This document shows, in pieces, positions 1,250 through 10,808 of a stretch of 33,890 bases of DNA. The translations under genes and the position numbers were made by a program. The stretch spans positions 1 through 33,890 of the forward strand of contig DVDV01000340.1 of the NCBI GenBank assembly GCA_015296075.1. Direction: 5' to 3'. Under the pieces are notes generated by a model. That model saw only the letters and a list, made by a program, of their open reading frames with translations. It did not search any database and had not been told where the DNA came from. How positions within the stretch are numbered: position 1 is the first letter of the stretch; each line of letters opens with the position of its first letter. Source of the DNA: Leptolyngbyaceae cyanobacterium M33_DOE_097 (GTDB taxonomy: Bacteria > Cyanobacteriota > Cyanobacteriia > Leptolyngbyales > Leptolyngbyaceae).

Positions 1250-1888
1250 TCAGGCCCACTCTTCTTCAAAATCCAAGACCGACCGACGCTTGGCATGAAT
1301 ATTTTTCATGTGCTTCTTGACGGTATTGAGCGTGATGTAGAGCTTGTCAGCAATTTGGCGGTAGGTATGGTTTGCCTGAAATAGCAGCCACACCTCTAAC
1401 TCACGCGCGGTGAGATTGCATTTACGCGCTTCACATAAAGCTCGTTCACGCAAGGATTGCTTCACCTCTAAGAAAAGCAACACCACGTAGGGGTGATCGC
1501 CAGGAGCCACTAACCAACGCGCTTGTACCCGTAAGGCTAAAGCGGTAGATGCTGCAAACTTGAACTCAATTTGCCAGTTATGTTCTGGAAAAATGGCTCG
1601 GCTTTCAATCAGGGCTTGAGCAACACACCAAACTTCTTCAGGGATGCGTTCTGACTGGGCAGAGACGGTTTTGATTTGGTTAAAGATACGTTGCGCACCT
1701 AAGTCAATATCAACAACTTCTCTTGTTTCTGTTAAAACAACCATCCCTAAAATGCCTTCTTCTGCCATGAGAATTGACTGTAACTCATGCTGGTGTTCGG
1801 CTGACAAAATACAAGAAGAATTCGATGTAGGGGCGATTGGTTGATGTTTAAAGGAGCTATTGTCTGTTCCAGAGGCTTGGAAAGGCAT
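1250..1888 (-). CDS. LuxR-type helix-turn-helix transcriptional regulator
   Basis: This is a 212-residue protein with a GerE/LuxR DNA-binding domain at about residues 158-202: LTARELEVWLLF, then a turn, then YITLNTVKKHMKNIHAKRR, which is the usual recognition helix. The first 150 residues do not look like a phosphorylatable receiver domain; no DD/D/K pattern is apparent. A region around residues 35-145 with VVLTETREVVDID and PYVVLLFLEV strands could be a PAS-like sensor fold, but that is inference. The start ATG (1886-1888) has a GGAG ribosome site, read as CTCC at 1897-1900 on the plus strand. It is divergent from the 175-aa gene across a 672-bp spacer, so it may control that gene, itself or both. 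The ligand is unknown. The protein ends in an acidic tail, DFEEEWA. Confidence 0.85.
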   Translation of the reverse strand: MPFQASGTDNSSFKHQPIAPTSNSSCILSAEHQHELQSILMAEEGILGMVVLTETREVVDIDLGAQRIFNQIKTVSAQSERIPEEVWCVAQALIESRAIFPEHNWQIEFKFAASTALALRVQARWLVAPGDHPYVVLLFLEVKQSLRERALCEARKCNLTARELEVWLLFQANHTYRQIADKLYITLNTVKKHMKNIHAKRRSVLDFEEEWA

Positions 1889-2560: not shown

Positions 2561-3088
2561 ATGTCTCCCGCAATTCCTGTTTCTGGACCACAAGCTTCTA
2601 CTCACCAAGGTGGTAGCGAACTGTACAGCAAAAACATCATTGGTCCAGCCTGGTTTACCATGTCTGACTTTCGAGTTGAAGGTTCAGCTGGTGATCCATT
2701 GCCCCCTGAGCAGGTCGGTCCGAATCAGTCGAAATACATTGTTGCCTCTAACGAGAGCGTAACCGCTAGCGTAAAACTAACCTTCAATAAGTCTCCTTTA
2801 ACTGCTTTGTTGATGTGTTTAGGTATCAAACTGAAAGTGAATTTCCACTTTGAAGGGTTTGGTAACATCGCTACTGAAATCGACTTGACGACCGAAAAAA
2901 CTAGCGAGAAAGATGTCTACGAATACGATCTAAAACTTGATTTAGTTCCCGGTATCGCAGGCTTGACTGCTGGTTTGTATGAAGTGGCTGCCACGGCTGA
3001 AATTGGCCCTGGTAAGAACGAATGTGCTCAGCATGTCTTCGGTTATGGCTATATTCAAGAGTTCTTGCTCCAAGTGTATGCCGCTTAA
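2561..3088 (+). CDS. Unassigned 175-aa beta-rich protein
   Basis: I do not recognise a named family. The protein has no signal peptide and no clear membrane segment; an LTALLMCLGIKLKV stretch near residue 82 is hydrophobic but reads better as buried strands. Alternating strand patterns (SVTASVKLTF, KLKVNFHFEGF, YEYDLKLDLVP, LYEVAATAEI) suggest a beta-sandwich. Residues from about 32 to the end align by eye, without a computed score, with the C-terminal domain of the 311-aa protein encoded downstream: compare SVTASVKLTF with FELVATVEFS, TAGLYEVAATAEI with QAGAYRLHLSFTV, and the endings LLQVYAA and LLSVYQA. Glycine codons are mostly GGT, unlike many neighbours, which hints at high expression. 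It is divergent from a LuxR-type regulator. A structural or carbohydrate-interacting role is possible but unsupported. Confidence 0.7.
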   Translation: MSPAIPVSGPQASTHQGGSELYSKNIIGPAWFTMSDFRVEGSAGDPLPPEQVGPNQSKYIVASNESVTASVKLTFNKSPLTALLMCLGIKLKVNFHFEGFGNIATEIDLTTEKTSEKDVYEYDLKLDLVPGIAGLTAGLYEVAATAEIGPGKNECAQHVFGYGYIQEFLLQVYAA

Positions 3089-3104
3089 TCGAAGCTAAGT
3101 GATT

Positions 3105-3132
3105 CGCACCTTTCTTAAAGAAGGGAGGTGCG
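3105..3132 (+). terminator. Strong hairpin after the 175-aa gene
   Basis: Twelve bases (3105-3116, CGCACCTTTCTT) pair with AAGGGAGGTGCG (3121-3132) with two G-T wobbles and an AAAG loop. It starts 16 bases after the stop codon. The following sequence (ATCGCTCCATTTAATATT) is not a strong T tract, so it may act as an mRNA-stabilising 3' end rather than an efficient terminator. A HIP1 octamer (3130-3137) overlaps the right arm. Confidence 0.5.
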
Positions 3133-3316
3133 ATCGCTCCATTTAATATTAGCTATCCTGCTTAAAGTTGAATCGGGTGTCAGGATCAAGCTTCTACTTA
3201 AAAGTATTGTTCCTGCACCTCTTTTTAGGACTTTCTAATTGATTGCAACAAAAGAAAGCGGCTGAAAAGAGAACTCATCTTTTTCAAAATTAGTAGGAAA
3301 TGCTGCCGCACAAAAC

Positions 3317-3343
3317 AAACTGGTAGGTTTTATCTGCCAGTTT
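3317..3343 (+). terminator. Hairpin with T tract, terminator or attenuator before the HhH gene
   Basis: AAACTGGTAG (3317-3326) pairs with CTGCCAGTTT (3334-3343) with one T-G wobble and a 7-nt loop, and runs into TTTTCT. It ends 48 bases before the 311-aa gene. It could be the true end of the 175-aa transcript or an attenuator controlling read-through into the next gene. Confidence 0.5.
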
Positions 3344-3391
3344 TCTACTTATTCAAAGGCACAACCTAGTAGCAATAACAGGAGAGAATGA

Positions 3392-4327
3392 ATGAACTCA
3401 AGTAAAGAACTGAGTCGAATTCGAGGAATTGGTACGGCGAAACAACGCTGGCTACAAGCAATTGGAATTACAACTATTCAAGCCTTAGCAACAACTCCAA
3501 CTGAGGCGATCGCACAACAGTTGGCAGAAAAAGGTTACAGTGCCTCGGCTGAAGAAATTGCTGCCTGGGTTGCCAAAGCGCAAGCATTACTAAGTGCCGT
3601 ATCGGTTCCTCCTGAGGTGGTTGAACCAGAGGTGGCACAGCAAAAGGCAGACAGTAAGAGCGATGGTTGGGCGGCGATCGCGTCCTTCAACGTAGAGTTT
3701 CAATCTCGCAAAGTGGCTGAAACGGTTGAACAACGGGTCATCATTCGCCACCACGAAACCAATACCACCGAGACGCTATCTGAACAAAATATTCATTACT
3801 TGCAACAAGGCTTGCTTGAGCGCGTGCAGATGAGCTTGATTGCCAGTAACCCTGCCGCGCAGGTGCCTCAACCTTTGACCGTGACTATCACGCAAGTTGA
3901 GTTAGTGCGATCGCGCTCTGCGGCAACCATGACCGCGACACCAGAGCATCGCTTATTTGCTGAACAAATTGTGGCTAACGAACCATTTGAATTGGTGGCA
4001 ACGGTTGAGTTTTCTGATTTACCTGCTGAAGGACTCAATCGACCGCTGATTTGTCAGTTAACCGCTCAAGCCCGCCATCTCTCAGGGGGTTCCACGATTG
4101 AGTTGGGCAGCGTTGTTAAGAGTCTGACTCTACATGATGCAATGAGCTATCGGTTCATGCTACCCGAAGCAAATCTACCTCAAGCGGGTGCCTATCGACT
4201 GCACTTATCGTTCACCGTACAAAATGCCCCTGCAACCGTGGCTTCTTTCAAGATTCCCCTTCTGTCGGTTTATCAAGCTTCTGAGCTAAGTTACTCAGCC
4301 AATGGAGCCTGCGCGATCGCGCTGTGA
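3392..4327 (+). CDS. 311-aa protein: N-terminal helix-hairpin-helix region plus C-terminal beta domain
   Basis: Residues 5-70 start LSRIRGIGTAKQRWLQAIGI and continue with a second helical pair (TTPTEAIAQQLAEKG, then AEEIAAWVAKAQALL). This resembles the helix-hairpin-helix domains found in DUF4332-like proteins. A linker of about 35 residues follows. The region from about 95 to 150 (IASFNVEFQSRKVAETVEQRV and following) is mixed alpha/beta. Residues from about 165 to 300 form a strand-rich domain resembling the 175-aa protein upstream, with matching FELVATVEF, QAGAYRLHLSF and LLSVYQA elements. There is no signal peptide. A GGAG ribosome site at 3381-3384 supports the ATG at 3392. The HhH suggests nucleic-acid or protein binding. 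The pairing of a lone beta domain and an HhH-beta fusion suggests partners that co-assemble, which is inference. Confidence 0.75.
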   Translation: MNSSKELSRIRGIGTAKQRWLQAIGITTIQALATTPTEAIAQQLAEKGYSASAEEIAAWVAKAQALLSAVSVPPEVVEPEVAQQKADSKSDGWAAIASFNVEFQSRKVAETVEQRVIIRHHETNTTETLSEQNIHYLQQGLLERVQMSLIASNPAAQVPQPLTVTITQVELVRSRSAATMTATPEHRLFAEQIVANEPFELVATVEFSDLPAEGLNRPLICQLTAQARHLSGGSTIELGSVVKSLTLHDAMSYRFMLPEANLPQAGAYRLHLSFTVQNAPATVASFKIPLLSVYQASELSYSANGACAIAL

Positions 4328-9038: not shown

Positions 9039-9185
9039 ATCGTACAATCACCCACAAAAGAATGAAAATTGAGTCGTTAGAATAGCATTTGGGATGAATT
9101 AAATTAACAGGTGCATCAACTTGAGCTGTTTTTGCTACGAAGTCATCTCTGATGACTGTCATCAGGTTTGCCTCCTCAACACTTT

Positions 9186-10808
9186 ATGTCCATAACAGAG
9201 CCACGAGATCCAAATGTTGGGCGACTGCTTGCTAACCGCTACCAGTTGATTGAGCTAGTTGGTAAAGGCGCAATGGGTCGGGTTTATCAGGCAGAAGATA
9301 TTCTGCTAGGCGGCACCATTGCGGTGAAGTTTTTGGCGCAAACGCTGCTGAATTCAAAGATGCGCGATCGCTTCAAAGCCGAAGCTCGAACCTGCGCCCA
9401 ACTCGGACAAAAAAGCATTCACATCGTACGGGTGACCGACTACGGGGTCAACGACGATGACGTACCCTTCTACGTCATGGAGTATCTGGAAGGGTTGGGT
9501 TTAAGCGAAATCATTAGCGCCCAGCAACTCTTGTTGCCCCGCTTTCTCAGCCTGACCCGCCAAATTTGTCTGGGGCTGCAATGTGCCCACCAAGGCATCG
9601 TTGTTGACGGAGCGATGTGCCCCATCATTCACCGTGACATCAAACCAAGCAACATCCTGGTTTGCAAAGACACCAGTTTGGGCGAGTTGGTTAAGATTCT
9701 AGACTTTGGCATTTCTAAGCTGCTCCAGGCGGATGGCGGCCAAACAGGCTCCTATATGGGCACCTTGGCATATTCCTCACCTGAGCAGATGGAAGGGCGC
9801 GAGTTAGATGCTCGTTCAGACATCTACAGTCTGGGCGTCATGATGTATGAAATGCTGTCGGGCAAGATGCCTCTCCAGGCAGAAACCCACTCTTTTGGCA
9901 GCTGGTATAAAGCTCATCACTTTCATCCGCCCCGACCGTTGAGTGTTTCGGCTCCTGGTTTGAAAATGCCGAAGCCGCTCGAAGAGTTGGTAATGGGCTG
10001 TTTGGCGAAGTCACCGAGCGATCGCCCTCAATCGGTTGCAGAAGTTTTGAAAGCCCTTGAACCGCTGGATCAGCGTTATAGCGGCAACCGTGAAGTCAGC
10101 CATCGAATTGGCGAAGTTTTAGCCAAAAAGCCGCCCATTATTGATCCGGTTGTTGCGCCGCCAAAACCAGTCCAAGAGGCATCAACGGTTGATCGAAGCT
10201 GCCAGATGGCAACCTGGCCACGTAACAAACCGATCGCCCAAATTGTCTTTCCTCAGCCGTATACTACTGATAAGGGCACACTCGCGACGCTCTGGGTTAT
10301 GTTGGCGAGAGACGATATCCGTCATTTGCAAGTTCATCGGCTTTATAACCGCATCTACAAAAACTTTCTCTGCTCGATGTCGCCTCACCCGATGGTGCTT
10401 TGGGTAACAGCGATTCATAATAGCTACCGCAAAACCCAGGGTGATGAGTCCTTAAATGGAAGTGAAAAATCAACCCGCTGGTTGCGCTGCTACATCGACT
10501 TGAAGACTGCCCAAGGGCAAGAAATGACCCGTTTGCTGAGCGATCGCCAGGAATATCAGATCCTCATGTTTGCAGTGGAAGATCCGAGTAAGTGTGCCCA
10601 TGTCATTACGGTGCCGATTCATCCTTCCCAATGCAGCCAACTTCAACAGTGGGCGATCATCAGCCAAACCACCATGTCAGTTGACACACCTACCACCAGC
10701 AAAAATCTGCTGCAAGCCGAGTTCGACAAACTCAAACCGCGCATTGAGAACGAGATGCAGACTAGCAGCACCTCGTTCTCAGTCAAATTGAGCCAACCGG
10801 AGAGCTAA
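9186..10808 (+). CDS. Ser/Thr protein kinase (Hanks/PknB-type) with C-terminal cyanobacterial domain
   Basis: Numbered from the ATG at 9186 (540 aa), the kinase domain spans about residues 18-300. It has the glycine loop GKGAMGRV at 26-33, Lys48 in AVKF, HRDIKPSN at 149-156 with catalytic Asp151, DFG at 173-175, SSPEQ in the activation segment and RSDIYSLGVMMYEM. All catalytic residues are present. No membrane helix is seen, so the kinase should be cytoplasmic. After a Pro-rich linker, a C-terminal region of about 200 residues carries several Trp and Cys residues (TLATLWVMLARDD, RWLRCYIDLK, CAHVITVPIHPSQC). It has no recognised name and may be a regulatory or substrate-recruiting domain. A TTG 18 bases upstream is a less likely start. 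The adjacent genes do not reveal the substrate. Confidence 0.9.
   Translation: MSITEPRDPNVGRLLANRYQLIELVGKGAMGRVYQAEDILLGGTIAVKFLAQTLLNSKMRDRFKAEARTCAQLGQKSIHIVRVTDYGVNDDDVPFYVMEYLEGLGLSEIISAQQLLLPRFLSLTRQICLGLQCAHQGIVVDGAMCPIIHRDIKPSNILVCKDTSLGELVKILDFGISKLLQADGGQTGSYMGTLAYSSPEQMEGRELDARSDIYSLGVMMYEMLSGKMPLQAETHSFGSWYKAHHFHPPRPLSVSAPGLKMPKPLEELVMGCLAKSPSDRPQSVAEVLKALEPLDQRYSGNREVSHRIGEVLAKKPPIIDPVVAPPKPVQEASTVDRSCQMATWPRNKPIAQIVFPQPYTTDKGTLATLWVMLARDDIRHLQVHRLYNRIYKNFLCSMSPHPMVLWVTAIHNSYRKTQGDESLNGSEKSTRWLRCYIDLKTAQGQEMTRLLSDRQEYQILMFAVEDPSKCAHVITVPIHPSQCSQLQQWAIISQTTMSVDTPTTSKNLLQAEFDKLKPRIENEMQTSSTSFSVKLSQPES

Follow-up and report, generated by a model that had tools for sequence, protein, structure and literature searches.

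Two adjacent genes in a cyanobacterium, one encoding a lone beta domain and the other a beta domain behind a helix-hairpin-helix (HhH), raise the question of whether the two domains are copies of one another and whether their products work together. The genes lie in a 33,890-nucleotide stretch of DNA from Leptolyngbyaceae cyanobacterium M33_DOE_097 (contig DVDV01000340.1), which we refer to as the window. A sequence-only reading had proposed that they carry a duplicated domain, with one copy fused to the HhH, and that they form two parts of one assembly. Both open reading frames (ORFs) were confirmed. The first, C1 (positions 2561 to 3088, forward strand), encodes 175 amino acids with GGT-rich codons, and the second, C0 (3392 to 4327, forward strand), encodes 311. 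For C1, a Pfam scan returned no family at E ≤ 1, the sole NCBIfam listing (PA0050_fam, E 0.44) scored 10.7 bits, far under its cut-off of 45, and the solved structures gave no sequence match to the C1 profile at E ≤ 1.

The AlphaFold2 models gave a clearer view of the domains. C1 was predicted to be a sandwich (mean pLDDT 84.6, pTM 0.76) that folds over residues ~30 to 175, following about 25 N-terminal residues of low confidence. C0 (mean pLDDT 81.5, pTM 0.50) was divided into three parts. Specifically, a DUF4332-like HhH head (positions 3398 to 3601, forward strand; residues 3 to 70), helical in the model, passes the curated cut-off of PF14229 (24.6 bits vs 23.2, residues 6 to 66); a middle beta-beta-beta-alpha domain (3680 to 3841, forward strand; residues ~97 to 150), which the sequence-only reading had not described, is common to paralogues with a SUKH head; and a C-terminal beta-sandwich (3875 to 4279, forward strand; residues ~162 to 296) corresponds to residues 26 to 175 of C1, with which it appears homologous (see below). 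Separately, in a C0-type profile termed A4, in whose alignment the SUKH-headed proteins were trimmed to their tails, the HhH part has two matches among solved structures, at E 0.0014 to 8yy9_O, a photosynthetic “Reaction center protein O chain”, and at E 0.031 to 9wqv_a, which is a subunit of complex I.

Both predicted sandwiches look E-set/Ig-like. That of C0 matches RhoGDI2 (5h1d; Z 11.5, rmsd 3.1, 125 aligned residues; Foldseek E 1.3e-6), a member of a family with a lipid-binding pocket that regulates Rho GTPases. Since a bacterial adhesin domain (9blp, Z 11.2) ties with RhoGDI, the structural match is one of fold, not of function. The best match of C1 was the Wzt sugar-binding domain (6o14_B; Z 9.6, rmsd 2.7, 113 aligned); Foldseek found nothing for C1 at E ≤ 0.001 (best E 3.7e-3) and reached RhoGDI only at E 0.026 to 0.031. 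Residues 220 to 330 of 2vjx_A were fitted by both C1 (31 to 172) and C0 (163 to 293). Sequence identity in the structural matches listed was 6–19%.

A direct BLASTP comparison of C1 with C0 gave nothing of significance (E 4.4). Comparing profiles built from 14 C1 and 12 C0 sequences, we obtained a colinear alignment of 136 columns with a probability of 73.6 (E 2.9e-5). Adding sequences left this direct link no stronger (42 by 20 sequences: probability 26.2, E 7.1e-4), and profiles trimmed to the domains gave a probability of 5.7–8.4, with E 0.0066 or 0.004 depending on direction. The trimmed score of 22.4 was reached by none of 200 column-shuffled profiles (mean 12.4, sd 2.3, maximum 21.0). 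As controls, the C1 profile was compared with seven other local profiles (best E 0.028, for emfourin) and the C0 tail profile with seven others (best E 0.12; reversed tail 0.12). At the level of profiles, the direct link between C1 and the C0 tail is thus real but weak.

A much stronger connection runs through a third family of lone domains, D3, found via an ORF (L050:118-591, reverse strand) that matched the C1 and tail models at E ~2e-4 and subsequently extended by six further ORFs to seven. The D3 profile (n = 7) matches that of C1 with a probability of 98.8 (E 1.4e-16) and that of C0 with 95.9 (E 5.9e-9), and the D3 model retrieves the window's C1 at E 9e-10 and its C0 at 4e-4. Because this intermediate links strongly to both, it firms up the homology of C1 and C0, and on the evidence of profiles and predicted folds C1 and residues ~162 to 296 of C0 are distant homologues. 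Profile similarity therefore places C1 and the C0 tail in one domain family, weakly in direct comparison and strongly through D3. One D3-like ORF (L089:10313-10867, E 8e-7) occupies the place expected for C1 and has a cysteine-rich, zinc-ribbon-like N-terminus (Pfam E 0.036, below the cut-off).

The structural side of the comparison points the same way. When the sequence-only alignment was overlaid on the separately predicted models, all seven long strands of C1 fell on strands of C0, with the short C1 strand 60–62 unpaired; a one-residue slide still left a strand agreement of 0.80, compared with 0.83, which makes this a coarse test of the register. The motif pairs that had first suggested paralogy (SVTASVKLTF/FELVATVEF, AGLYEVAAT/AGAYRLHLS, and the C-terminal LLxVYxA) were aligned together in the 14-by-12 profile alignment. 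The last of these pairs did align, but its VYxA identity is partly a chance feature of the window's C0, as LQVV or LQVI is the ending in most of the other C0 rows. Altogether, similarity was found both between the profiles and between the predicted strands, and these results, together with the D3 link, bear out the proposal that the domain was duplicated and that an HhH is attached to one of the copies.

A tree of 52 rows (14 hand-picked C1, 7 D3, and 31 tails, with loci L029, L031, L032, L034, L035, and L037–L041 omitted) recovered C1 as one group (100/100), with D3 beside it and the tails across a 100/100 branch. C1 also carries its own signature: patterns for Cys86 and Cys155 both matched in 55 of 56 C1 ORFs, redundant rows included, and in the remaining one (L058) both cysteines are present by eye. 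None of the seven D3 sequences has a cysteine at the equivalent alignment positions. This conservation suggests that Cys86 and Cys155 have a paired role in C1, in a disulfide or in metal binding.

If the two proteins are parts of one assembly, their homologues should be found together. Among 42 genomes of the same family, C1 was present in 13, C0-type proteins in 13, and both in 10 (Fisher p 4.2e-5, a value that overstates the association, since the test takes genomes as independent and ignores relatedness). Genome G025 was dropped from both counts (14 to 13) because its matches were D3 ORFs; a separate C1 search arrived at 13 without this correction. Co-occurrence is thus supported in part, and neither outcome that was to refute the sequence-only reading (homologues never found together, or domains lacking structural similarity) was observed, but the partnership is not obligate: 22 of the 38 C1 loci described below show no tail gene. 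C1 occurs without a C0-type protein in G002 (same genus), G013, and G041. Conversely, C0-type proteins occur without C1 in G003, G015, and G039, and in all three a D3-type ORF lies beside the C0-type ORF; in G003, on a 3.3-kb contig, the two overlap on opposite strands. D3 is found without a recognized nearby tail in G025 and G032. A ~157-aa protein, 59% identical between L112:9985-10464 and L087:767-1237, is common to the two D3 clusters that lack a recognized tail.

An even sample of 386 genomes of the phylum, containing few of the window's family and with at most eight (C1), nine (D3), or five (C0) candidates scored per genome, yielded C1 in 2 genomes, D3 in 1, and the C0 model in 41. In the window's own genome the C0 match runs over the tail; in the other 40 it falls within positions 9–107 of 328, the head end only. 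A phylum-wide family is therefore unsupported. An origin in mobile elements was likewise rejected, no C1 relative having been found in viral contigs, plasmids, or phages and no C0 relative in plasmids.

A scan of named genomes located C1 at 38 loci, whose titles are all cyanobacterial, and revealed a recurring cluster in Leptolyngbya-type cyanobacteria that comprises a LuxR-type regulator, C1, HhH- or SUKH-headed tails, an M4 protease, emfourin, and a protein of ~100 residues that we call C2. Nodosilinea nodulosa PCC 7104 and Leptolyngbya sp. PCC 7375 are among the carriers of C1, and Stenomitos frigidus ULC18 has the complete set. Because several of the genomes that supplied the local models (HhH, tail, SUKH, M4, emfourin, C2, and regulator) are also among the 38, the resulting E-values are partly by construction. 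A tail gene was seen at 16 loci, and at all 16 it is the next recognized gene downstream of C1, on the same strand and 27–308 bases past the C1 stop. Several of the 22 loci where no tail gene was seen are on short contigs, and L068 breaks off within a SUKH gene. The tail is HhH-headed at 13 loci; a SUKH gene is present at 12, fused to the tail in 8 of these (split by a frame break at L064); and at L049 the tail has no recognized head. A regulator lies less than 3 kb from C1 at 13 loci, and C2 lies within 4.4 kb at 18, with one more at 6.1 kb. The protease is encoded at 10 loci and emfourin at 8 of those 10; the contig of L071 ends inside the M4 gene, and L078 has C1 and M4 without a tail gene or emfourin. 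By sequence comparison, the predicted E-set domain occurs alone (C1 and D3) as well as at the C-terminus of HhH and SUKH fusions, in adjoining genes. The heads appear to have been swapped on one tail, the 52-row tree needing four label changes for HhH and three for SUKH, which one gain followed by losses might also explain.

This arrangement bears on one alternative, which is that an old duplication has been kept side by side through common descent while C1 and C0 serve separate functions. C1 does without a C0-type protein in 3 of its 13 genomes, as well as at the 22 loci noted above, as such a history would allow. However, the gene order recurs even though the tail proteins are only 24–33% identical to the window's C0, and D3-type ORFs replace C1 in all three genomes that have only C0-type proteins. 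We regard separate functions as unlikely.

On representative loci, Pfam identified M4 (E 1.4e-49), emfourin (E 5.5e-27), and SUKH (E 3.7e-11); the PF09346 (SUKH) and PF00082 (subtilase) assignments are single-locus checks and not counts. The HExxH motif was present in 14 of 15 M4 ORFs, the remaining one being interrupted at a contig end, and no signal peptide was evident in the M4 ORFs upon inspection by eye. In one genome (G025, L087), D3 genes instead flank a subtilase (PF00082, E 7.9e-42). The C1/C0 system is probably cytosolic.

Several further features of these neighborhoods were observed. The subtilase ORF, L087:2923-4572, has no evident signal peptide. Three emfourin ORFs (L066:12673-13086, L072:12671-13114, and L076:6145-6594) are extended at the N-terminus, where a stretch resembling a twin-arginine motif and a hydrophobic run occur, and the M4 protein beside each starts without an evident signal peptide, the starts being those of the longest ORF only. 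A DUF4870 protein and an apparently membrane-spanning protein recur near C1 or D3 (L066:8081-8434 and 9048-9587; L072, L074, L087, L033, and L034). In addition, L044, L046, L051, L052, and L057 share a chromosomal context that holds C1 with C2 downstream, and in four of these five an 86-aa ORF resembling ribosomal protein L27 by eye adjoins C1.

The company of a protease, an inhibitor, and SUKH could also point to conflict between bacteria, with the protealysin-like protease as effector, emfourin and SUKH as immunity proteins, and the beta proteins carrying or shielding the effector. One source proposes protealysin and emfourin as an interbacterial effector-immunity pair (PMC9505478), another counts SUKH among the immunity families of polymorphic toxin systems (PMC3482391), and all three of SUKH, M4, and emfourin are present at 5 of the 38 loci (L069, L070, L073, L076, and L077). 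Nevertheless, most SUKH loci (8 of 12, counting the one with the frame break) have SUKH as part of a tail fusion and not as a separate protein, the window locus has no effector, and toxin, trafficking, or secretion genes were not recognized among the proteins scanned with Pfam, a minority of the neighbors. The layout of a polymorphic toxin system, with a toxin and a trafficking or secretion region by an immunity gene, was likewise not recognized among the window proteins scanned. A PADLOC search with seven proteins gave nothing better than E 1e-5 (none for C1, one match at E 0.011 for C0, and one at E 2.2e-5 for the C-terminal end of the regulator), and the absence of C1 relatives from the plasmid, phage, and viral collections and of C0 from plasmids also speaks against this reading, which we find doubtful.

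Within the window, a LuxR-type regulator (GerE HTH; positions 1250 to 1888, reverse strand; PF00196, E 9.4e-7) points away from C1, with 672 bases between the two divergent genes, and C2 (4584 to 4904, E 8e-26 to its model) is here on the opposite, reverse strand. The cluster contains neither an M4 protease nor an emfourin gene; the M4-emfourin pair of this genome is unlinked, on another contig (L084, G000:C1:716-2207). A second locus in the genome, L028, encodes C1, a tail without a recognized head, SUKH, and a regulator. Just 3′ of the C1 stop lies a strong hairpin (3098 to 3137, forward strand) with no T run after it; the best 40-mer folds at −22.9 kcal/mol, compared with −7.7 ± 1.8 for 30 mononucleotide shuffles. 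Of 44 rows examined, 9, the window included, have a hairpin beyond 3 sd after C1. The hairpin in the window may separate C1 from C0 expression.

The sequence-only reading had taken the GGT-rich codons of C1 as a sign of abundance. The codon bias itself was confirmed (12 of 17 glycine codons are GGT), and at 0.69 C1 is better adapted to ribosomal genes than any other of the 27 window genes compared (range of the rest 0.55–0.66; C0 0.62), on a scale set by 22 ribosomal-region genes, which range from 0.63 to 0.74. With 0.65 for the second C1 of the genome (L028) and 0.69 for its neighboring regulator, the index has little power to separate genes and does not single out C1. Codon use suggests, but falls short of showing, that C1 is abundant.

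Such abundance would also fit a storage or structural role, in which C1 is a self-assembling sandwich, the fused paralogues serve as less abundant caps or anchors, and the protease, where present, turns C1 over. The ribosomal-level codon use of the window's C1 and the hairpin that separates it from C0, the tandem C1 copies at L044, L050, and L062, and the loci with C1 alone are all consistent with it. Yet codon use is no proof of abundance, the second C1 has a lower score, the hairpin is seen in a minority of rows, and C1 consists of a single small domain plus a tail predicted with low confidence; we think this role unlikely.

We tentatively favor, with a probability of roughly 0.35, the view that the cluster encodes an intracellular assembly under regulation. 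Lone sandwiches would pair with their paralogues, exchangeable heads would recruit partners, and in some strains the whole would be tied to a protease. Once the regulator is active, C1 would be made in quantity. It would then join C0 and the SUKH fusions by way of their paralogous sandwiches, or share a ligand with them, while HhH and SUKH heads would bring different partner macromolecules. Where a protease is encoded, the assembly might present its partners or itself to it, with emfourin holding the protease in check. For the window's genome, where M4 and emfourin are on another contig, a link to proteolysis is possible and is not indicated by the locus.

In favor of such an assembly are the homology of the domains, the position of the tail gene after C1 wherever both were seen, the D3 ORFs beside C0-type ORFs in G003, G015, and G039, the exchange of heads, the loci with M4 and emfourin, the L087 subtilase, the ribosomal-level codon use of C1, and the divergent regulator. 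Against it are the 22 of 38 C1 loci without a tail gene, the 28 without M4, the lack of protease and inhibitor at the window locus, the lack of tail and emfourin at L078, the presence of C1 without C0 in G002, the restriction of the subtilase case to a single genome, and the codon index that does not set C1 genes apart. Altogether, the original proposal that C1 and C0 belong to one assembly is plausible. A more specific version, in which the E-set tail, the beta-beta-beta-alpha neck, the swapped HhH and SUKH heads, the lone E-set partners (C1 with its conserved Cys pair, or D3), the different intracellular proteases (M4 with emfourin or, in one genome, a subtilase), and the LuxR-type regulator constitute an undescribed modular adaptor system, a device for client-selecting proteolysis, is speculative and unlikely.

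Placing C1 and C0 in one domain family with defined neighbors means that function can be tested for the set and not gene by gene. If the link to proteolysis is true, protealysin-type M4 proteases and their inhibitors would belong to a module under regulation, next to proteins that are candidate client adaptors. The recognized parts are all of known fold types, and their arrangement appears to be undescribed: no family in Pfam or among solved structures covers C1 or the C0 tail, and a literature search by title, with subscription journals sparsely covered, found no published description of the cluster.

The components nevertheless resemble known systems in part. The C0 head is like the DUF4332/HhH proteins (PF14229), whereas the C0 tail domains lie outside Pfam coverage. 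The predicted sandwiches of C1 and C0 resemble E-set/Ig-like structures such as RhoGDI, the Wzt carbohydrate-binding domain, and the GH2 and transglutaminase sandwiches, but differ from them in their low sequence identity and in the lack of any sequence match to the C1 profile. The SUKH/SMI1-KNR4 family (PF09346) provides the head of the sister fusion; there, it is joined to the middle beta domain and tail, and it is absent from the window locus. Finally, M4 and emfourin genes are adjacent in a minority of relatives, as in the protealysin-emfourin operon. The relatives additionally have a regulator, C2, and beta proteins in both lone and fused form, and the window locus is without both the protease and the inhibitor gene.
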